Source: Aristolochia californica (lineage: Eukaryota > Streptophyta > Magnoliopsida > Piperales > Aristolochiaceae). Taken from it: DNA of 64,000 nucleotides. Below the pieces are notes generated by a model. It was not told where the DNA came from. It made no database searches and was given only the letters and a program-made list of their open reading frames with translations. This document shows, one piece after another, positions 5,221 through 50,200 of the stretch (positions are counted from its first letter, which is position 1; every line of letters begins with the position of its first letter). The DNA is taken from contig JARWKL010000002.1 in NCBI GenBank assembly GCA_029961685.1, positions 37,726,908 through 37,790,907 on the forward strand. Direction: 5' to 3'. A program made the translations under genes and the position numbers.

Positions 5221-7163
5221 TGATTTGATAATTGCCAAATAGTACCTTTTTACTAAATTTTAGACTCTCTGTCAAGAAAAGGGCATTATCCATAAATCTT
5301 CGTGTATCTACACCCCACAACAGCATGATGTGTTTAAAAAAAATAGATATCTATTTAAGGTTTCCGATAGAAAAATGGACATCTAGTTAAGGTTGGTAGG
5401 ACAATCATGCTCTATATAAATGTCCCTTAGGTTTATTGGTTATATGTTGTTCTTACAACTTGTTTGTTAATTAATTGTAAGTCATCTAATGTCATACGTG
5501 ATCAAAAACCTTTTTCAAAATTGTCTCCTGGTACAACACCATTTCCATTGCCACCACATGTGTTTGGATGCACCGTCTCCGTTCATTATATGGAGCCCCA
5601 TCAAAACAGATTTTCTCCCTAGGCAATTAAGTATATCCTTTTGAGATACTCAAAAACTCAAAATGGATATACGTATTACTCTCTTGTTCTTAAGAAGACA
5701 TTTGTTTCAGTTGATGTTACTTTTTATGAGGACCGGCTATACTTCTTGCGTAGTTTTCCCCTTGGTTTTTCACCCACTACAGGTATGCCCAAGCCAAATG
5801 TGCCTAATGATCATCACATTCATCATGAGGAGCAAACACATGAGATTCTTCTCTCCTCTTGTTGACCACTTGCCTATGCAGTCTCTGGATGCTCCTAAGG
5901 TAAGTTCTCCTTCATCTTCTCTAGTTGTGTTTGGCCCACCTTATGGTACTGGTCTTATCGCCCTTCATAAATAATTATGTACCACTACTCATCCACCATC
6001 CACTTTACATCCCACCTCTCATTTCGTTTCTACACATTGTTTGTCCTCCAACTATGTTACCTTTTTTTCTTCCATATCTTCTCAGGTTCCTAGATCCAAG
6101 ATGGAAAGCTACCATGGATGAAGAGATTCATGTCATGTATCAAAATTCTACCTAAGAATTGGTTCCTCTTCCTGCCAGTAAGAAACCAGTCGGTTGCAAG
6201 TGGGGTTTTACACTTTAATATAATTTGGATGGGACTATTGCCAGATATAATGTACATTTGGTGGCTAAAAGTTATACTCAATCATATGGTGTTGATTATG
6301 ATAAGATATTCTCACGAGTGGCCAAAATGAATTCTGCTTGGGTTCTTATTTCTCACGCGACCACTTTTAAGTGGGAACTACGTCAATTGGATGTCAAAAA
6401 TGTTTTCTTAAATGGCGATCTTTCAGAGGAGGTATATATGGCTTAGCACCATGGGTATGTGGTTGAGAAGGAGCAGGTATATCAATTAAAAAAGCAATTT
6501 ATGGGCTCAAACAAACCCCACGAGGCTAGTTTGATAAGTTTACCATGGTTGTCACTAAGTTGGGTTTAAGAGATATGAGAGCGATCACTCAATATTTCTC
6601 AAAAATACCACTCAAGGGAAGATTTTCATGGCAGTATATGTTGATGATATTGTTATCACTAGGAGTGACTACAATGGAATTTTGCAAGTCAAAGAAGACT
6701 TAAAAAGAATTTTTCAAACCAAAGACTTGGGGCTTCTTAATACTTCTTGGGCATAGAAGTTCTACAATCGAAATAGGACATAATTATGTCATAAAGAAAG
6801 TATGTTTTTGATCTATTACAATAAACCAAAATGCTCAAGTGCAATCCGACCGATACACCTATGGAGCCCAATGTTAAATTATGTGCTGAAGGTGGTAGTG
6901 ATGTTGATATTGGACGGTTCCAACGATTGGTTGGGAAATTAATCTATCTCTCGGTTACAAAACCTGATATATCTTATTTAACCAGTTTATGCATTGTCCT
7001 CAACAAACTTATTGAGAAGCATTAGAAAGGATTCTTCGATACTCAAAGAAATATCCTGGTCAACGGTTATTATTCAAGAGTTGTGGACCTACATACATGG
7101 CAATCTTTATAGATGTAGACTAGACAGGTTCACCAAATGATAGAAAATTCACCTCTGCTTATT
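5221..7163 (+). pseudogene. copia polyprotein remnant 2, left part (integrase to RNase H)
   Basis: A second, more decayed copia polyprotein. Integrase traces start near 5221 as a degraded FDNA-type block. The post-integrase region lies at about 5560-5870. RT spans about 6160-7030, with a VAKSYTQ-like block, LDVKNVFLNGDLSEEVYMA at 6390-6446 and a VYVDDIV catalytic box near 6640. The start of RNase H (DRKFTSAY) is cut at 7163 by the LTR element inserted at 7164 and resumes at 11783. Frameshifts and stops are frequent. No 5' LTR was found. Confidence 0.85.
7159..7163 (+). repeat. 5-bp target-site duplication, left copy
   Basis: The word ttatt here is repeated at 11778-11782 just after the 3' LTR. 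Removing the insert and one copy restores an open copia RNase H frame (TSAY followed by CTTVGGNL). This independently confirms the insertion boundaries. Confidence 0.85.
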
Positions 7164-7491
7164 TTTTATGTACGCAATAACATTATTATTTTAATTTTTT
7201 TCTTTAATTTACTTTATTTTATTTTAGTTTTAGGCCATAGGGGTATTTTGGAATATTTCATTTATAGGGGTATTTTTGGAATATTTTATCTTAAACCCTA
7301 TAAGGGTGAACCCTATTTAAGGGGTAAGAGTAATGAGAAAGGGAAGCATTGATTTTAGGTTAATTTTAGGTTAAATAGGCTTGGAGCTCTCCTTGACGAG
7401 TTCTAGGGTTTTCAAGCTTCCTTTTGGCTTGATCTTCGTCTTTCTCTTCTTCCTCCCTACGAATCCATGTGTCAGATCCAGTACCGTAACA
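7164..7491 (+). repeat. 5' LTR of the gene-capturing element
   Basis: It aligns along its length to 11427-11777. It starts just after the target duplication and ends gtaaca immediately before the primer site. Relative to the 3' LTR it lacks about 5 nt at the extreme start and one copy of a 10-nt ccctacgaat duplication. A tract of repeated tttattttag and ggggtattttt words occupies its left half. Confidence 0.85.
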
Positions 7492-7493
7492 AC

Positions 7494-7508
7494 TGGTATC
7501 AGAGTGGG
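7494..7508 (+). other. primer-binding site, initiator-Met tRNA type
   Basis: The sequence tggtatcagagtggg starts 2 nt after the 5' LTR. It matches the common plant LTR-element primer site complementary to the 3' end of initiator methionine tRNA. This identifies the flanking repeats as true LTRs. Confidence 0.85.
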
Positions 7509-7509
7509 A

Positions 7510-7832
7510 ACACAATAAATGATTCTTCATTCCAAGAATTATGACACAACGAATTGGAAGCCCTACTTGCATTGTATAGAGCATCTGACGAAAGATGGCG
7601 TGCATCTTCCATTGAACGTTCTACAATGGAGAAACTCACTGCAGCAAGGGAGAAACACGATGCTGCAGGAAAGAACACAATGAATGATTCTTCGTTCCAA
7701 GGATTATGTATTGCTATGCACAACGAATTGGAAGCCCTACTTGCATGGTATAGAGCATCTGACAAAAGATGGCGTGCATCTTCCATTGAACGCTCTTCAA
7801 GGGAGAAACTCGTTGTCGTAGAAAAGAAGGTC
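7510..7832 (+). repeat. tandem duplication of about 160 bp
   Basis: Two adjacent units (about 7510-7675 and 7676-7832) share the succession cacaat.aatgattctt, gaattggaagccctacttgcat, tatagagcatctgac and agatggcgtgcatcttccattgaacg. Both read the same peptide words (NELEALLA, YRASD, RWRASSIERS) in one + frame from 7554. The unit is not recognisable as a domain; it could be a residual gag segment. It sits directly downstream of the primer site. Confidence 0.8.
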
Positions 7833-8800
7833 ATACGACCTCAAATCTCCAAGCACGACATATGCACAGAAGCGGCAGCAGAAGCTATCTCGGACAGGTA
7901 GAAAGGCCAAGGGCCAGGAAATTTCAATATGTCTGAGCAGGGAACTCCAGCGATGGGACAAAATTGATTTTTGGATCATGGAAATCAGATGAGAGGGACC
8001 CTGCACATCAGAAATCGAAGTAGACATCAAATCCAAAATCGGCCTCGAAACTTCTGAAATCATACGACGGGAACTCAAATTTTGGGAAATCGGAAGGGTA
8101 TTCTACCAAAACCTCGTCGGTAATGGCTGTTGTGGGTTCGACCTCAAAAAACACCTCCTCACGGCCAGCAGAATGTCTCCCAGAACAGGAGAAGGTAATA
8201 TTTTCGACGATTCTTCCGGAAAGGATGTGTTTTCGAGAGCCCTCTGTCTCAGAAAATCCCCAAGCGGCGAAGCCCAAAAGGGCTACTCTTCGCCATCAGA
8301 CACTGAGGAGGCTCCGTCGGTGCCATTGGTAACAAGTCCGGTGGGATTTGACTTCTGGCCACCATCTCTCAGTCTCAATCTAGCTCTCAGTAGTCCAGCA
8401 AGGAACCCACTTCAACGTATTTTGGGGTAAGCTTCTAAAATGCCATCGAATTTTATGTCTAAACGATTTTTCCATGGGAGTGAAGGGGCTCCAAGGGGCT
8501 GAGCGACGTTGCTCAAATTTTTGGCCTAGAGGTTCTCTGTTCCGTGACACAGAGAAACAATACCCAATTGAAGGTATTCGGGCTTGGGTGTATGAATTTC
8601 GAGATGAACTTTTTTCTGGGGATGTTGGGATTCATAGAAATAAGTTTATGGGGACTGCTGAAATTTTTTTTTTGGGGGGCTATGTTTTGTTGTTGATGAG
8701 CACAGTCACTGTGCGTGGGTTCGTTGATCAATTGACTCGGTGAGGCTGTTTAATCTTTCTAGTAACGAGACCACCAGCAGTGTAAATGTCCCGTCTTTGT
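7833..8800 (+). other. unidentified interior of the gene-capturing element
   Basis: This stretch between the tandem duplication and the poly(A)-binding-protein fragment is less AT-rich than its flanks. It contains several overlapping short frames, such as 8123-8332 and 8173-8430 on +. I recognise no domain. By analogy with the rest of the element it may be a further captured gene piece or the remains of gag. Confidence 0.5.
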
Positions 8801-8802
8801 TT

Positions 8803-9166
8803 GTGCTTAATGGGATGCTCCTGCATGATAAGCAGCAGATGTTGCTCAAGCTGTTGAGGGGCTTAATTTTTTGGGTCCCATGTCTGTAGTAATGAGAGAC
8901 GGAGAGGGGAAATTCCAATATTTTGGATTTGTTAATTTTGAGAATGCAGCAGATGATGCTCTTACCGTTGAAGGGCTTCATGATATAAAAATTGAGGACA
9001 AGGAGTGGTATATTGGGAAGGCTCTAAAGAAATCAGAAAGGGAGATGGGATTGAAGGGATGGTTTGAACAGATTTATAAGGCGAATGTAGACAAGTTCCA
9101 ATGGGTGAACCTGATTGACAGCATAGATGATGAGCAGGTGAACAAATTGTTTTTGAGTTTGGTCTA
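8803..9166 (+). pseudogene. captured poly(A)-binding protein fragment (RRM2 end, RRM3, RRM4 start)
   Basis: The + strand reads LNGMLLHDKQ (the end of PABP RRM2) at 8803-8835. It then reads VVMRDGEGKFQYFGFVNFEN and EDKEWYIGKALKKSERE (RRM3 RNP motifs and the following linker) in the frame of 8871-9167. SIDDEQVNKLF from the RRM4 start follows. Plant cytoplasmic poly(A)-binding proteins show this exact order. A deletion removes the start of RRM3, and the frame stops at 9165. The fragment has no introns, so it entered through RNA. In the intact protein these domains bind mRNA poly(A) tails; this piece cannot be functional. Confidence 0.85.
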
Positions 9167-9190
9167 ATTACTTCACGCAAGGTTTTTGTA

Positions 9191-9829
9191 GTGAACTTGA
9201 TAAATGTGTTGAGTGGTATATATGCTATCATAACAGGTAGTTCTAAGGGGCTTGCTGTGATAGGAGATTCACAGGATAGTAAGTTAAATTTACCATTTCT
9301 TGGTTCTGCAAAGTATGGAGATAGATTTCTTCGTTCTGCACAGAAAGCTATTGCCAGTGGGGAAATGGTTTATGTGAACCTTGAGTGGACAAAAGTAGTG
9401 CCCCTCCCAGACGACCGGGTGGAGTATGAGTTGTGGACCAATAGCAATGATGAGCGTGGGCCTACGTGTGACATGCTGATGCAATTTAAGAAGAATGCAG
9501 CAATATGCATTAGTGCTGTATCTAATGGTAAGAATGCATTTATGCTGAATGATTATGCTATTCGTGCTGAAACTACTAATGAGTTTGCTGAGAAAGATGA
9601 ATCAGTGTTGTATGTTTCTGCTATTAGCAGTGACTTAGTTGAGATTGAAGAAATAAAGTTTAGTTCTATTGAAGATGTCAAACCTGCAGTAGAACCTACA
9701 ATTGAATTTGGCAATCTTTGTGTTGAGTTAGAATGCAAAGATGACGTTGCAAATGGTGAAAGTTTGTCGGTTCATTCTATTATTAAGGTGAAATCAAGGG
9801 TTGAAGTTTTGACAACAAAGCAGGCATGA
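9191..9829 (+). pseudogene. chimeric open frame: VSR fragment plus unknown segment plus ATCase start
   Basis: This 212-codon frame crosses several captured pieces. Its middle (about 9340-9490) matches vacuolar sorting receptors, with GEMVYVNLEW followed by DDRVEYELWTNSNDE from the receptor luminal region. The segment at about 9490-9795 is unrecognised and acidic (words such as DESVLYVSAISSDLVEIEE). The last codons, VEVLTTKQA, match the aspartate carbamoyltransferase sequence that continues after the stop at 9827. The frame shows no sign of being a translated gene, but its openness across three origins is notable. Confidence 0.75.
9340..9490 (+). pseudogene. captured vacuolar sorting receptor fragment
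   Basis: The words GEMVYVNLEW, PDDRVEYELWTNSNDE and CDMLMQFKKN match the conserved block of plant BP-80/VSR receptors, where the usual form is EYEFWTNSNDECGPKC. Those receptors sort storage and lytic proteins to the vacuole. The first conserved cysteine of the block is replaced by arginine. The sequence just upstream (about 9278-9340) may also derive from this gene but aligns poorly. Confidence 0.75.
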
Positions 9830-10046
9830 AAATTTTCTACAGCAACAAAAGGAGAAACACTTGAAGCTACCATACGAAATGTCAAAGGAACTTTGACAGT
9901 GGTGCTGCCAGAAGAGCTGCATCAACAGCAGGTATTCCTGTTATTGATGCTGGGGATGGTCCAGGCCAGCACCCTCTATGGGTTTTGTTGGATGGGGATA
10001 GGATCAGAAGAGAGACAGGCAAATTGGATGGCATTCGTGTTGCCTT
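9800..10046 (+). pseudogene. captured aspartate carbamoyltransferase fragment
   Basis: In two frames the sequence reads VEVLTT, then KFSTATKGETLEATIR, then after a small deletion GAARRAASTAGIPVIDAGDG, PGQHP and IRRETGKLDGIRVAL. These match the plant plastid aspartate carbamoyltransferase (PYRB), including the PGQHP catalytic-domain motif and the KLDGI block. The enzyme makes carbamoyl-aspartate in pyrimidine synthesis. A stop at 9827 and a frame change near 9898 break the copy. It joins calnexin in the same frame at about 10046. No intron interrupts it. Confidence 0.85.
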
Positions 10047-11214
10047 AGGATGGAAACCCAACGAGTTTGACAATGAATCTTCCTACACCATCATGTTGGG
10101 ACCTGATAAATATGGGTCCAATAACAAGGTGCATTTCATCCTCAAGCATAAGAATCCCAAGTCTGGGGAGTTTGTGGAACATCACCTTAAATTTCCTTCT
10201 TCTGTTCCATCTGATAAGCTAGCCCATGTTTACAATGCAATATGGAAACCTGACAATAAATTGTGGTTTCTTGTGGATGGGGAGGGAAAGAAAAAGATCA
10301 ATTTTCTATCTGCTACTGATTTTGAGCATTCACTTATCCCAACTACAACAATACAAGATCCAGATGAGAAGAAACCTGAGGATGGGGATGAGAGAGCTAA
10401 GATTCTAGATCCTGATGCTATAAAGCCTGGCGTTTGGGATGAAGTTGCCCCAATTGAAATTGAAGATGCGGAAGCAGCGCAACCAAATGGATGGTTGGAT
10501 GGTGAACTACAGGAGATTGACAACACTGAAGCTAAGAAGCCCGAAGATTGGGATGCTGATGAGGATGGTGCATGGGAGGCACCGAAGATTGATAATCCTA
10601 AGTGTGAATCTGCTTCTGGCTGTGGTGAGTGGAAAAGACGTATGAAGAGAAACCCAGTTTATATGGAATGCCCCATTGATTGATAACCCTAACAATAAGG
10701 GTGTCTGGAAGCCCAAGCAGATTCCTAACCCTGAGTACTTTGAGCTTGGTAAACCTGACTTTGAGCCCATTGCAGCTATTGGAATTGAGATATGGACAAT
10801 GCAGGATGGGGTACTTTTTGACAATATTTTGCTAGCTGGGGATGAGGAGACTGCAGAATCTGTCAGGGTGACTGCATGGAAGCCTAAGTTTGAATTGGAA
10901 AAGGAAATGCTGATTGTAGATATTCTTTTCTTAGCAGCATATAAGTTCAAGATTATTGTTGTCATTGAGATGGGAGGGAGTTAGCCTAACCTTACTATTG
11001 GCATTCTGGTTTCTGTGGTTGTTGTCATTGTAATAGTCATTTTTAGGGCTATCTTTGGTGGAAAGAAACGAGCTCTTGTTCGAGTACCGCTCAAGGAAAA
11101 GAAAAGCTCTGAAGCTAAAGGTGACAAACAAGGAACTAGTGGTGACAAGGAAGATAAAAATGAGAAGGAAGATATTGCTGCCCCACGACCAAGGAGGTCT
11201 AGAAGGAACACATA
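10047..11214 (+). pseudogene. captured calnexin fragment (lumenal domain to C-terminal tail)
   Basis: Starting at GWKPNEFDNES, the sequence follows plant calnexin. It shows the GPDKYGSNNKVHFI lectin block and the KPEDGDERAKI, KPGVWDE and KPEDWDADEDGAWEAP proline-rich arm repeats. These are followed by CGEWKR, PNPEYFELGKPDFEPIAAIG and IEIWTMQDGVLFDNIL. After an internal deletion come the transmembrane segment (PNLTIGILVSVVVV) and a KEDIAAPRPRRSRRN tail. A frameshift with stops near 10680 and a stop near 10982 break it. Calnexin is an ER membrane chaperone. The absence of all introns shows capture from spliced mRNA. Confidence 0.92.
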
Positions 11215-11426
11215 AAACTACAATGGGAGATCCAAAATTTTGAGGAGAGTTGGTTATGTAGTATTGATGTTAAAAAAAAAAAATTGCTGCTTTGGTTGGA
11301 TGCTCTAGTTTTGTAGCTAGAGAGCTGACACAGATACCGCGGATGACACTTGAGAATGGATGGAGACATCGGCACGGGCAAGCAGACCTACCTTCGAGCT
11401 TGAGGACAATCTCGTCTTCCAGGGGG

Positions 11427-11777
11427 TGTAACGTTATGCACGCAATAATATTATTATTTTAATTATTTGTCTTTAATTTACTTTTATTTTATTTCTGTTT
11501 TAGGCCATAGGGGTATTTTTGTAATATTTCATTTATAGGGGGTATTTTTGTAATATTTTATCTTAAACCCACCCTGTAAGGATGAACCCTATTTAAGGGG
11601 TAAGAGTAATAAGAAAGGGAAGCATTGATTTTAGGTTAATTTTAGGTTAAACAGGCTTGGAGCTCTCCTCGACGAGTTCTAGTGTTTTCAAGCTTCCATT
11701 TGGCTTGATCTTCGTCTTTCTCTTCTTCCTCCCTACGAATCCCTACGAATCCATGTGTCGGATCCAGGATCGTGACA
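11427..11777 (+). repeat. 3' LTR of the gene-capturing element
   Basis: It begins tgtaacg and ends cgtgaca, a nearly perfect inverted end pair. It is preceded by a weak polypurine run (ccaggggg at 11419-11426) and followed by the ttatt duplication at 11778-11782. It aligns to 7164-7491. Confidence 0.85.
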
Positions 11778-11782
11778 TTATT

Positions 11783-44200: not shown

Positions 44201-47200
44201 GGGATGGTGACCGGTGAAGGGTCCCAACTCATTTCAAATAACGGCACACGTTAGCGCATACGAAATCGCCATGCTCTCGGCGCATGTTCTGTACCTCTTT
44301 GTTAAAGTTCTAGTATTACTTTTCTTGAGTACAACATTTGGGAAGTCCTCCTGAAGGAAACCTCTTGTCAATATTTCAACATTTGATAGAACTATATTTG
44401 TTTCTATTGTCAATATCCTGAATGCTTAGAAGAAGAAAATTCTTTTTGTCCATGAAACTAGATTTATATGTTTGCCTCCCACTCTTTGAATTTGCATTGG
44501 ATGTCTTTCAATTTTCGGGAGAACCTTATAGCAGCTGAATCCTGAACACAACAACTCTTCCACCATTATTCCAGCACATGGCAGAAAGGACTTGTCTTTT
44601 AGCCACATCACCTCGAATCTAAATTGGAGGGGACCCCATGATTGAACATGAGATTCATATAGAATTAGGCAGTGATTTGATGCGGGTCGTGGAAGCACAT
44701 GAGCTGCACCTAGGGGAAACTGATTAAGCCACTCCTGAGAGGTCAGAAAAGATCCAATTTAGACTGTGTATGTGAATTGTTGAGTCGAAAAAATCCCACA
44801 TTGAAAAATGGGAAGATAATGTAATGGGTTATAAGGTTGAGCAATAGGCTTCCTAAGTGGCTACAAATTTTAGGATAGAACCGTGTTCAACCTAACACCC
44901 AACAGTGGTATAGAAGCTACTTGTTTGTATGGACCAAGGCCCAATTTGTGCTCCCTAGGTTATTTGTGTGTTGTGGGTTCCATGAGGTAAGGAGTTTGTG
45001 TTCTGGGCTCCATAAAGTAGGAGTTTGTATGCACTGTTGAGTGTTTGTCCCTACGTCTCAGGCCCGTTATGAGTTAGCCTGTGTTGAAGAGCAAATATGG
45101 AAGAGTCTTACATGACTCTCATAATAAGAAGTTTTATAGAGCCACAATTATTATGGAAGGAGGTCTCACAAAAGAGTTTTAGTTTCAAGGTGTTTTAGTT
45201 ATGTGTCTTCTATTTATGTTGAGTTATTTAATTATGCTAGGACTTATCTTTAAGTGTTAGAGTTTGGGTGTAATTGGGACAAAGGTAGTTTAATTGTAAT
45301 TGGACTCTACTACTTTCCTCTATTATAAATAGGGGTTCTTGTACTCTGATTACAACAAGTCAATGAAGTATTTATCTTTTCCATAAATTCAACATGGTAT
45401 CAAAGCAGGTACTGTGAGTTGAATCGGTCAACCCATAGAGATAATGGGATCCTTTTCTGATCTATTATCTCTAGTAGTTTAGGTTCGTATTTATCTTTTT
45501 TTTCTCTTTTTAGTCCCTATACTTATTGTTTGCTTTGCGTTTTCACCTCTATACTGAGCGTTTTCATATTGCATATTATATTTTGATGGAAAGATATTTG
45601 AGTCTACTTTCCAACGAAAAACGAATTTTGGCAATCAGAGTTTTCTACAAAGAGAAATCAACATTTGAAGCAGCAAAGGTCAAATTGCAAAAGAAGTTCG
45701 AGCAGCAGCAGAAAACTTCAACTTCTGAGTTATTTTATGCTATTAAGAATGGGACTTTATATGGAGAATTATATATCAAAAGAAAGATTTGTAAGTCTGT
45801 TTTCTTACCTATTCAACCAATTCTTGATCTAAGTTTTTTATATGGAGATATTGATCTTGGAAGAGTCAATGGTTATGCTTGCAAAAGGAGAAATAGTACT
45901 TAGTTCTACCAGATTACAGAGACTAAAATCTATCAGATTATTTATCTCAAAAGAAGTATATTTTATGAAGCGAAGTTATACTTGGATGAAAGGTATTTAA
46001 GTCTAGTTTTAGAAGGAGAATATTTCATGTTAATCTGATATATATTTAAGAATATATTCGCATTGGATGAATCAAAGGTCGTGCTGGTATCCTGTTGCAT
46101 TGAAAAATCCGAATTTAAGCCAATTTTTTGCATCACTTTTTGAGTTGCTGTTATCGATCAACAATATCAGGAAAATATCTCACTTATGCTTTCCTTGGTT
46201 ATACGTGTTCGGGTCTCGAGTTCTATACATATTTCTTCTGCGACTTAGCTATATTGGTATGATATCTTACTCGGTTCTCTATCTCCGACTGGATTATTAT
46301 TTTGGATTATTACTCGGTTCCAACATACTATTTGGTGCAACTTCCTTATTTACTGATGGACTCGTTGTGGACTATTTCATGTGTCCTTATTACTCTTAAG
46401 GACGTTCATTACTTACTAGTTATTTACTGCTATACTACTGCAAATTTGCTACATTTTATTTGGGTATTGACCCATTTCCGCTACTGCTATTGTGTCTCTT
46501 TGATTGAGATATTATTTCTGAAGAAGAACTCCTCAGTTGCTTGCCTTGGGTTCATTATTTGTTGACTATCGTTGGCATTGGTTTGTCTGATGCGAAATTT
46601 GAATTTTTTAGAAAAATAAAGCACATGAAGGCCTTAGCATCTTATCTCCCTCTTTACCCATTACCCATTGGTTGTTTGGCAGCCTTTTATCGCCATCTTG
46701 TGAATGACAGATATTACCCATTTATCACCCATTTCTACCTTTGAGAGTCGGTGCCGGGGGTGGGACATCGTGATTGAGGAGTTTATTACTTCATATATAT
46801 TATTTGGTTCAAGCTGGGATCACTGCCATTATCTCCCAGCTTGAGGGGGAGAAGTAGAAGAAGAAGTACAAGAAAGAGGTATTTTATTCCATATGTTTTG
46901 GTAAGTTTTATGTAGCCAAAATATTCAAGACAGGGGGAGCACAAAAGATGAAGTTTTTGCATCTATGAAGAAAGTTTTGCAATAAAGAAAATTGAAGACC
47001 AAAAATCATTTTCATTGTAAGCTGAACTATAAACTCCACCTTGAGAGGGAGTGTTGGAGAGAAAATATGGAAGAGTCTTGCATGACTCTCACAATAAGAA
47101 GTTTTACAGGGCCACAATTATTATGGAAAGAGGTATCTCAGAAGAGTTTCAGTTTAAAGGTGTTTTGTTATGTTAGTCTTTTATTTATGTTGAGTTATTT

Positions 47201-50200
47201 AATTATGTTAGGACTTATCTTTAAGTGTTAGAGTTTGGGTATAATTGGAACAAGGGTAGTTTAATTGTAATTGGACTTTATTACTTTCCTCTATTATAAA
47301 TAGAAGTTCATGTACATTGATTACAATAAGTCAATGAAGTATTTTTTTTTTCCATAAATTCAACAACCTGGATGTGAGGGAGAGTTTTGTGTGGGAAAAA
47401 ATCCCATTGAGAAGTCAGAAGAAAAGTTAATCGGTTATAAGGTTGAGGCAATGTCTTTTAAGTGACTAGTTATTTTGGGATGGAAATGTAACACCCAACT
47501 TTTCAATGTAGGCCTTTTTTCCACTCAACATGAATGAACACTTATGCCTTTAAATTCAACATTAAAATATTTTTTGTTTTACTTAAGTTACTCTACTTTT
47601 TCAAATTCAGTTGTTATTTTGCTATTACTATAGTTCTTTTAGTGTTTCAATTCTTGACAACTGCACCCATTTTCTGTAGCATCTTCACTGAAGAAAGGTT
47701 GCAGAGATTGACCAAAGGTATTGATGTGTTGGCTTTGGCATCATCCGAGGAGCAGAATCTGGGGGAAGAGATGCGTGGATGCAATGAAACAATTTCGCCA
47801 AAACAGAGCTCTATGGACACTAGTAATGATACAATGGAAAGTTCCGAAAAGACTGTTGAAAATTCTTTCTGCAGGTGTGTCACTGATAACAATTATGAGC
47901 CCTATCATCAAACAAATGATGAGGAGGCTCTAGAGAAGAAGATTGCATTTCAAGATCAGTCTGAGACAGAAGAGGCGGAGGGTAAAAGGAAACCTGGAGT
48001 TGTCATGCAAAATTCTAATTGCTCCATGAAACGATCTAATGAAAAACGCTTACCTGAAGCTGTTTTACCTCTCTTGTGGCATTACCAGACTGAGAGCTCT
48101 GATTCTTCTGCCAGGTGATTCAGTATATGTTGAAGCCTGCCCCTCTATAACCTACCAAAAGAAAAAGAAGGCTCGCCAGGGCACTACTCTATGATATATA
48201 ATATTGCATTGAGGAATGATTTTGGTTTGTTCTCTCATTTGTCCTGTAATCAGGGATGGACATATTCATCATTGCTCATTTTTTTCTTTTTTCCCTCTTT
48301 TACAGTATCCAGGGATCTCCCAGGGAGGACAGATATATTTGGAGTAATATGGAGGAAGGTGAGCAGGAGGAACCATCATCATCCGGTCACGAAGATTTCA
48401 ACGACCATAATGACATTCTTGAATGGGCTAAGGTAGGCAATATTTTAATTTGAGTCTGCTTTGATAAAAATAGGTTACAGTTTGTTTTACGAGAAAAAAT
48501 AAAGAAAAATTAGAAGAGAAATATGGATAGAGAAGGAGGCTTAAAATTGGAAATCAGATCTGCTCAAAATCAACCTTTTCAAAAGATGCTCCTACTTTCT
48601 GATGACTATGATTCTTTCTCAATATTGAATAAAATAATCTCTCAAGAATGTTTCTGAATTTAAACTCCAATACATAATACACTATTTGGACTTTTGTCCT
48701 TCTCACTCACAATTTATGTCTTGGACTTACAGCAGTATATATCTTAAACCGTTGCTTCCTCATATATGCTCTTTCTGGTGTTTAATTCTTGAACACTATT
48801 TGTCTTTTCTTTTTTTTTAAAAAAATCTGTTATTTATTTTTCAGGCAAACAATCATGGATCTTTGCAAATACTATGCGAATACTACCAGTTACGTTGCCC
48901 TGCTCGAGGTTCAACCTTAGTATTTTACCCCCTCGAACACCTTCATCCCTTGGAATTTCATAGAGCTGCAGAAACAGTGCTTCACACTGCAGGTTCAACC
49001 ATTGACTTAAGATCGTGCTCTACAAGTTTGGAAGTGGCCGAGGTATTATCTTGCCATGATTCACCTCTTAGGGTTTTTTATTTTTATGTTTATGTTTATT
49101 TATTTTATGTATTTTATTTTTAAATGTTGATTTACATAAGCATACTATAGATATGAGACTTGAATGCAAAAGCTTACACTAGAAATTCAACTCTTACTAA
49201 AGCAGCTTTGTCAGGAATTCCAAATTATTATCTTTCTTTTTTGCCTTCTTGTACTAATTTTGCTAATAAAACGGAGGAGATCGTATGTTGTTTCCTTAAT
49301 GGAAGAAGAGTGTCTCTTGTGCGCCCCTCTCCACACTAATTGGAAGGCGATTGTTCATATGTCCACTCCCTCTCCACCCCCCTGGGTGGCTATTTGGGCT
49401 CCCCCCTGCCTGTCATTTCTAACTCAACTTTGATTGCAGGGGTCTCGGGAATCCTGGGATGGCCGGTTTTGGCTGGGTGATATTTGACCCCTGCGGCACA
49501 GCTCTTATCTCCTACTCCGGGCCCCTTGGCATCACTGACTCGATCATGACGGAGCTCTCGGGTCTTCTCCGTGGCCTTTGTATTTTTCAGAATTATTTTA
49601 GTGGCCCATTCATTGTGGAGGGTGACTCCCAAGTGGTTATTGGATGATGCTCCTTCTCTACATTCCCTCTATGGCATCATTGGCAGTTATTTCTTGATAT
49701 TATGGATCTCATCTCCTCTATCCCTTGTTCCTAATCTCATGTACTTAGATCAACCAATTCGGCTGTAGATTGTTGTGCTAAATTGGGTCCCTCCCTTCAA
49801 TCCCTTGTTGTAAGGGGAGGCCTCATTTGATGTACTTTTTGCTTCTTCTTGAAATAAAATCATCACTGTATAAAAAAAAAAGAACTTTTGATCAGTTTCT
49901 TTACCATTTGGTGAACTGGCCAAAAGTTTGTCTTCCAAAGGATAAAAGTGGCTTTGGTAATCCCATTTACTTGATGAATCAAGCACTTTTGGTGTTATGC
50001 TGATGACAGAACTTCCCTTTGAGGTAGTTTCTTGACATGCTTCTGCCTTGTGGAAGGCCATCCTCAGGCTGAAGAATATGTTTCGGCAAGGAATTAGTAT
50101 CATATCAGGTGGGGTAATAGGGTTAGATTGAATTTATGTAGCTTGGTCAATGACAAGTAAGTTTTGGTTGTGGATTCTTTTTGTCATGGTGCTTGTTGTT

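Follow-up and report, generated by a model that had tools for sequence, protein, structure and literature searches.

A Bs1-like family of non-autonomous LTR retroelements in Aristolochia californica that probably captures spliced host mRNAs repeatedly

The 64,000-nt stretch of the Aristolochia californica genome analyzed here (assembly GCA_029961685.1, contig JARWKL010000002.1, positions 37,726,908 to 37,790,907; hereafter the window) holds at 7164-11777 a 4.6-kb long terminal repeat (LTR) element whose interior carries sense-oriented pieces of four host genes, those of a poly(A)-binding protein (PABP), a vacuolar sorting receptor (VSR), aspartate carbamoyltransferase (ATCase) and calnexin. 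An earlier note, written from the letters of the DNA alone, had proposed this element and its four donors; its span was upheld, and all four donors were recovered by protein or domain matches. We consider it likely that the element belongs to a Bs1-like, non-autonomous LTR family of A. californica that is moved in trans and repeatedly captures spliced host mRNAs by serial template switching, with open reading frames (ORFs) being favored.

The two LTRs are identical at 309 of 328 aligned sites (94%; Kimura two-parameter distance, K2P, 0.060), and another alignment gave 308/328 and 0.064. As the earlier note had claimed, they are flanked by a 5-bp duplication, TTATT. The frame of the interrupted host element, which we assign by its motifs to Ty1/copia, was rejoined (DRKFTSAYCTTVGGNL) once the element and one TTATT were removed, and was broken if both TTATT copies were kept. 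Judged from sibling insertions, the LTRs of the family start with TGTTATG or a similar sequence, and TT replaces TG in the 5' LTR of the window; a truncated 5' LTR had been considered and was dropped after this comparison. No second copy of the element was found within the window. The primer-binding site, correctly noted before, lies 2 nt past the 5' LTR with one mismatch to TGGTATCAGAGC, and is presumably of the initiator-Met tRNA type. The bare 12-base pattern occurs six times in the window against 4.4 expected; the evidence for the site is its position 2 nt after the LTR, not the pattern itself. No gag-pol domain was found in the eight window ORFs or the further pieces scanned, and the element was therefore classed as non-autonomous. 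The claim that it has no element proteins thus stood for gag-pol domains, and was qualified by a short tail beside the 3' LTR that we take, by its motif, to be perhaps pol-like. With its 4.6 kb and long ORFs the element falls outside the terminal-repeat retrotransposons in miniature (TRIMs), which are very short and without coding capacity. The Rfam scan returned no matches.

Among the captured pieces, that of PABP matched a PABP chain (6r5k, which we take to be yeast Pab1) at E 5.5e-20, its Pfam RRM match (0.0022) being below the cutoff; that of VSR was 73% identical to the VSR3-like protein of A. californica; that of ATCase matched PYRB chain 6ypo, presumably of Arabidopsis, at E 2e-26; and that of calnexin gave Pfam calnexin matches of 1.7e-65 and 5e-21. 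ORFs in the window copy are interrupted by stops and frameshifts inside the pieces. No donor gene was assigned to 8474-8832 or to two further segments, A (9191-9319) and B (9497-9802), which lie between the donors. Segment A was examined as a decayed VSR part and rejected, as its frameshift-aware score of 26 did not stand out from shuffled sequences (mean 26.4, maximum 37, n = 20). Segment B had no homologue and no notable PDB or Pfam match, and its predicted fold (confidence 37.6) was uninformative.

That the captured pieces came from spliced mRNA could be examined against a parent gene for calnexin, the one donor of the four so compared. Two loci with introns, at C329:42.34 Mb and C1:6.19 Mb, were matched by the calnexin piece, each in the same four blocks. 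The former (L065) was 100% identical to the A. californica protein P0001 across the main exon and is treated as the parent gene; the latter (G000:C1:6188593-6190241) was ~87% identical to the captured piece and is either a gene or a pseudogene. Within the captured span the parent has three introns, two with visible GT...AG ends at the block edges q912/913 and q1027/1030 and a third inferred by length (183 nt vs 73-76 nt in three intron-free copies), and none of the three is kept in the window copy, which runs straight through. Three sibling calnexin copies inspected were also intron-free, with block positions of other copies in agreement, and by our sorting of block structure at least four intron-free classes exist among the 40 scored of 54 candidates. 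In a tree of 29 sequences the captured calnexin was sister to the A. californica gene with support of 100/100, with a tip length of 0.31 vs 0.023. The earlier description of the pieces as intron-free thus held for calnexin; its expectation that junctions fall at exon-exon borders did not, as the left end of the captured calnexin falls mid-exon in the parent. The piece continues through its natural stop into 3' untranslated region (UTR), followed by a run of 12 A that is a candidate trace of an mRNA tail. Processed pseudogenes made by a long interspersed nuclear element could have landed serially inside an LTR element that then spread, as the intron-free calnexin and this A run would allow. We nevertheless regard such a history as quite unlikely, given that the pieces are mostly gene-internal and abut one another directly, that all are in sense orientation in the window, and that no other A run of at least 10 was found in the element.

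The LTR and chimeric interior recur at many other loci, as the earlier note had predicted. Genome queries with the LTR plus leader, the 8474-9190 segment, the 9190-10050 segment and calnexin returned 4021, 687, 300 and 54 first-look candidates, respectively, of which 40 were scored in each case; LTRs were checked at part of these places, and counts for the family are lower bounds. Of seven sibling insertions examined, five had identical 5-bp duplications of their own (GTCAC, GAGAG in a GA-rich stretch, GAAGG, TATGG and CAGGT), and no 5-bp duplication was established for the siblings on C438 and at C329:9.30 Mb. Restricted to LTR columns, K2P was 0.064 for the window copy and 0.035-0.086 for six siblings. 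When siblings were sought genome-wide, the one at C438:8.29 Mb was found to hold the same four captures, at 85-89% DNA identity to the window copy, and others to hold different sets. An older age of the C438 LTRs was rejected: the K2P of 0.124 had been inflated by bases outside the LTR, and the LTR columns gave 0.077 vs 0.064, which is not a clear difference. The interiors of the two copies are less alike than the two LTRs within each (308/328 in the window, 280/302 in C438), so that the patchwork predates both insertions. By this comparison, the four captures were inherited by the window copy, not made there. Likewise, the order A-VSR-B-ATCase was found in four copies that are 73-76% identical, and is therefore old, which weakens the idea that the window copy arose recently as a hybrid between two sister subfamilies. 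An old order would also be expected if a single capture had taken in an already chimeric host gene family, followed by nothing but erosion, which we regard as very unlikely: the subfamilies have the PABP part in common and differ downstream, and the intron-bearing calnexin locus lacks the other donors across the 3.9 kb examined.

Four donors are indeed present in one element, as first reported, and are not the limit of the family. Beyond the four, eight donors were identified at DNA loci, plus endoplasmin from a protein record. The copy at C13:11.54 Mb has PABP, segment B, ATCase and calnexin, and the VSR stretch of the window is without a match there. Those at C329:32.95 Mb and C35:14.84 Mb carry PABP, GH3 beta-glucosidase and NAP1, with GH3 (3.1e-10), NAP (5.2e-13) and RRM (9.1e-16) matches within one 347-codon ORF. 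PABP is accompanied by beta-galactosidase (1.7e-18) at C1:61.25 Mb, and HSP70 (4.7e-27) is found at C1:49.39 Mb. ATCase, H+-pyrophosphatase (H+PPase) and PPR occur at C221:19.60 Mb, where the H+PPase (2.3e-15) and PPR (9e-8) matches share one ORF, the PPR value being a whole-sequence score of which no single stretch passes alone. The copy at C221:14.41 Mb carries PABP, a longer VSR piece, GOGAT and EF-2, followed by gypsy-type integrase pieces; GOGAT (5.2e-11) and EF-2 (3.1e-28) lie in one ORF, and no 3' LTR was seen within the 8 kb examined. At C438:7.107 Mb (L022), GOGAT and EF-2 are directly followed by an LTR with a pol-like tail in front of it, as expected of a 3' LTR, and the GOGAT piece has a VSR match 1.2 kb upstream. 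One subfamily has six PABP-VSR matches within ~130 kb at G000:C221:14.37-14.50 Mb, as if locally multiplied. The A. californica protein record P0241 (530 aa, annotated as an endoplasmin homolog) has the 8474-8832 segment of the family as its N-terminus, followed by HSP90, so that gene annotation apparently already includes element chimeras. L060 may contain a piece of an M16 peptidase, but its Pfam match (3.4e-4) did not reach the cutoff, no PDB match was seen, and it was not counted. Ty1 RNA has been described at the endoplasmic reticulum (ER; PMC3945221; here and below, sources are cited for the accessible part of their text). A bias of the donors toward ER-bound mRNAs, considered because of calnexin, VSR and the Bs1 donors, was not supported, about half being ER-translated by our sorting.

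The frames of the protein matches were compared for each neighboring donor pair in the examined loci. Of 62 copy-by-join cells, 45 had both neighbors in one frame, against 21 expected (one third). The same frame was found in 5/5 cells for PABP-GH3, 3/4 for GH3-NAP1, 8/8 for GOGAT-EF-2, 5/7 for VSR-GOGAT, 2/2 each for ATCase-H+PPase and H+PPase-PPR, 5/8 for PABP-ATCase, 5/9 for ATCase-calnexin, 5/10 for PABP-VSR, 1/2 for VSR-ATCase, 3/4 for PABP-calnexin and 1/1 for VSR-calnexin, the joins VSR-ATCase, PABP-calnexin and VSR-calnexin being partly composites of others; it was the commonest offset in 11 of the 12 joins and tied in the remaining one. The count left aside loci that duplicate the window or another locus (L001, L031, L064, L066, L069 and L009) and gaps of at least 800 nt (one, in L082, in frame). 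Overlapping loci were counted once per join, which reduced 66 cells to 62 once four in-frame cells of L052 and L053 (overlapping L043 and L034) had been removed, and out-of-frame cells may reflect later indels. An initial statement that all joins are in frame (7/7, later 9/9) was replaced by this count over all examined copies. The sense ORF was longer than the antisense ORF in 11/11 segments and was above the maximum of 200 Markov sequences in 10/11, the HSP70 segment (ORF of 160) being below the Markov maximum of 193. The longest sibling ORF, at C1:61.25 Mb, had 510 codons, compared to at most 228 in 200 Markov sequences.

We infer from these data that the pieces were joined by template switching repeated during reverse transcription, as the earlier note had proposed, with a trans-acting partner and selection for one open frame, not for the amino acids. 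Template switching would account for inserts within LTRs that are in sense orientation and free of introns, for a break inside an exon, for a 3' UTR and for the many joins. Abnormal template switching between two RNAs of one particle has been described (PMC13317346). During minus-strand synthesis in the particle, reverse transcriptase would leave the element RNA for a host mRNA packaged alongside it and return, or would switch to the RNA of a sister element; the resulting patchworks, in sense orientation and without introns, would then transpose as units, probably by means of Ty3/gypsy proteins acting in trans, and those with a broken frame could be lost, for example if untranslatable RNA were destroyed by the host. 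A candidate source of such proteins is a Ty3/gypsy-type gag-pol ~2-4 kb downstream of a family LTR and leader in L063 (G000:C2:7370100-7374100), with a gypsy-type reverse transcriptase at ~4 kb, and integrase domains are found in L052; the L063 gag-pol may be a helper element or a nested insertion, and the L052 domains may be nested as well. Read-through transcription of neighboring genes, i.e., classical 3' or 5' transduction, is known for some retroelements (PMC13317346), but would add one neighbor at a time at the end of an element, and for four donors inside the LTRs it is an extremely unlikely source. It is also unlikely, though less so, that the patchworks were assembled at the DNA level, by recombination or gene conversion among nearby inserted copies and processed pseudogenes rather than during reverse transcription. 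The six matches of one subfamily on C221 and the homology supplied by an LTR family with 4021 first-look candidates would favor such exchange, yet the initial entry of unrelated spliced mRNA requires reverse transcription, and neither the sense orientation nor the same-frame excess would be expected.

Several points weigh against template switching under selection for an open frame. The switch itself was not seen, and the one junction compared with a parent is the left calnexin end; loss of introns was examined for one of four donors; and the autonomous partner is a candidate. The 62 cells are not independent, as joins are shared by descent, and the donors outside the window were found through ORF scanning, which favors in-frame joins. 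PABP-VSR is in frame in only half of its cells, and a join of NAP1 to a PABP linker in L056, the linker being identified by what we take to be its motif, is in different frames and was left out of the count. In the window, VSR-ATCase is in frame, whereas PABP-VSR and ATCase-calnexin were scored out of frame because of frameshifts inside PABP and ATCase; at the ATCase-calnexin border itself, both pieces are in one frame. Antisense ORFs exceeded the Markov 95% point in 5/11 segments. Pairwise ratios of nonsynonymous to synonymous substitution (dN/dS) over the shared ORF of nine copies (36 pairs) ranged from 0.46 to 1.74; in several copies, parts lay in another frame than the reference, an effect that draws the ratio towards 1. 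Finally, of 144 calnexin sites that do not vary among 108 plants, 19 are changed in the captured piece, compared to a median of 1 and a maximum of 7 in real calnexins. With 8 of 36 invariant sites changed in the VSR piece, the combined 27/180 exceeds the ~7% expected from the LTR age (P ~0.002, assuming the common residue at capture in invariant sites and equal rates in LTRs and codons); capture is therefore probably older than the insertion.

The encoded protein thus looks at most weakly kept, with codon change near neutral. An open frame seems to be favored although the amino acids are not clearly kept, and selection for translatability would fit such a pattern. One possible, rather doubtful explanation is that the element RNA must stay translatable end to end, so that only joins prolonging a single open frame would survive, regardless of the protein encoded. 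A standing cycle of mRNA capture would then let the element mimic host mRNA and escape RNA surveillance or silencing. If this were true, many new chimeric reading frames would arise in passing, some of them annotated as genes, as in P0241.

Features of the window copy are listed in Table 1. The leader contains a 118-codon ORF (7545-7901) without known domain. Its tandem duplication (7508-7811) adjoins the primer site and is present in many family copies. Elsewhere in the window, a second short LTR element lies at 45082-47365, with LTRs 90.5% alike, an inner part of 1.65 kb whose ORFs were inspected by eye, a primer-binding-site-like TGGTATCAAAGCAGG at 45395, and flanks (GCCTG/ACCTG) resembling a mutated 5-bp duplication.

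Table 1. Features of the element and its insertion site, in window coordinates.
Feature	Position	Strand	Basis
Host Ty1/copia element, RT/RNase H side, 5' of insertion	6600..7158	+	Frame restored across insertion point
Target-site duplication TTATT, left	7159..7163	.	Flank comparison
5' LTR	7164..7491	+	LTR alignment; start seen at sibling insertions
Primer-binding site, initiator-Met tRNA type, TGGTATCAGAGTGGG	7494..7508	+	One mismatch to TGGTATCAGAGC
Family leader with tandem duplication (7508-7637 / 7673-7811)	7508..7901	+	
Leader tail	7902..8473	+	Belongs to long ORF in siblings
Family-shared segment, also N-terminus of P0241	8474..8832	+	Sequence matches
PABP piece, RRM3-RRM4, one frameshift near 9152	8833..9190	+	PDB match; last part by motif
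Segment A	9191..9319	+	Common to siblings
VSR piece, codons 153-212 of A. californica VSR3-like	9320..9496	+	Protein alignment
Segment B, open in chimeric frame	9497..9802	+	In other subfamilies without VSR
ATCase piece, residues 93-182 of PYRB chain, one stop and one frameshift	9803..10047	+	
Calnexin piece, codon 117 to natural stop; one frameshift, one inner stop, 72-nt deletion	10048..11215	+	
Calnexin 3' UTR, 56 nt	11216..11271	+	92% to last block of parent gene
Run of 12 A, possible mRNA tail trace	11272..11283	+	Candidate
Remnant like Ty3/gypsy pol end (FELEDNLVFQGV, stop), reaching 3' LTR	11284..11431	+	
3' LTR	11432..11777	+	LTR alignment; sibling insertions
Target-site duplication TTATT, right	11778..11782	.	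Flank comparison

To our knowledge, few cases of multi-gene capture by LTR elements exist. With many capture products in one plant family of elements, the steps of capture can be ordered, junctions compared and selection on chimeric ORFs asked about. The family also cautions that, in genomes of this kind, a gene model may be an element chimera. No published description of it was found in the literature searched, which reached few subscription papers. The comparison with maize Bs1 made in the earlier note was borne out: Bs1 is likewise an LTR element whose interior consists of pieces of several host genes (three) that form a chimeric gene (PMC13317346), and similar hybrid ORFs across pieces are present in this family and broken by stops and frameshifts in the window. 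In contrast to Bs1, four donors occur in one element here, sister copies add at least eight, and the family is large, with several structural classes. Gene-fragment LTR elements of maize B73 also hold host gene fragments, and in the accessible text none of the 425 intact elements listed had more than one standard nuclear gene under the conditions used (PMC2774510). The soybean TRIM GmaRetroS15 is likewise a small LTR element with 5-bp target-site duplications and exon-only pieces of three genes, and most TRIM elements with gene fragments occur in more than one copy (PMC4717578). These TRIMs are 1,172-1,449 bp long (PMC4717578), whereas the present element has 4.6 kb, longer pieces and, in the family, long chimeric frames. 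Pack-MULEs and Helitrons are likewise mobile patchworks of host genes. Helitrons are DNA elements and acquire genomic DNA together with its introns. The same is described for Pack-MULEs (PMC4717578), in contrast to the LTRs, primer-binding site and absence of calnexin introns found here.

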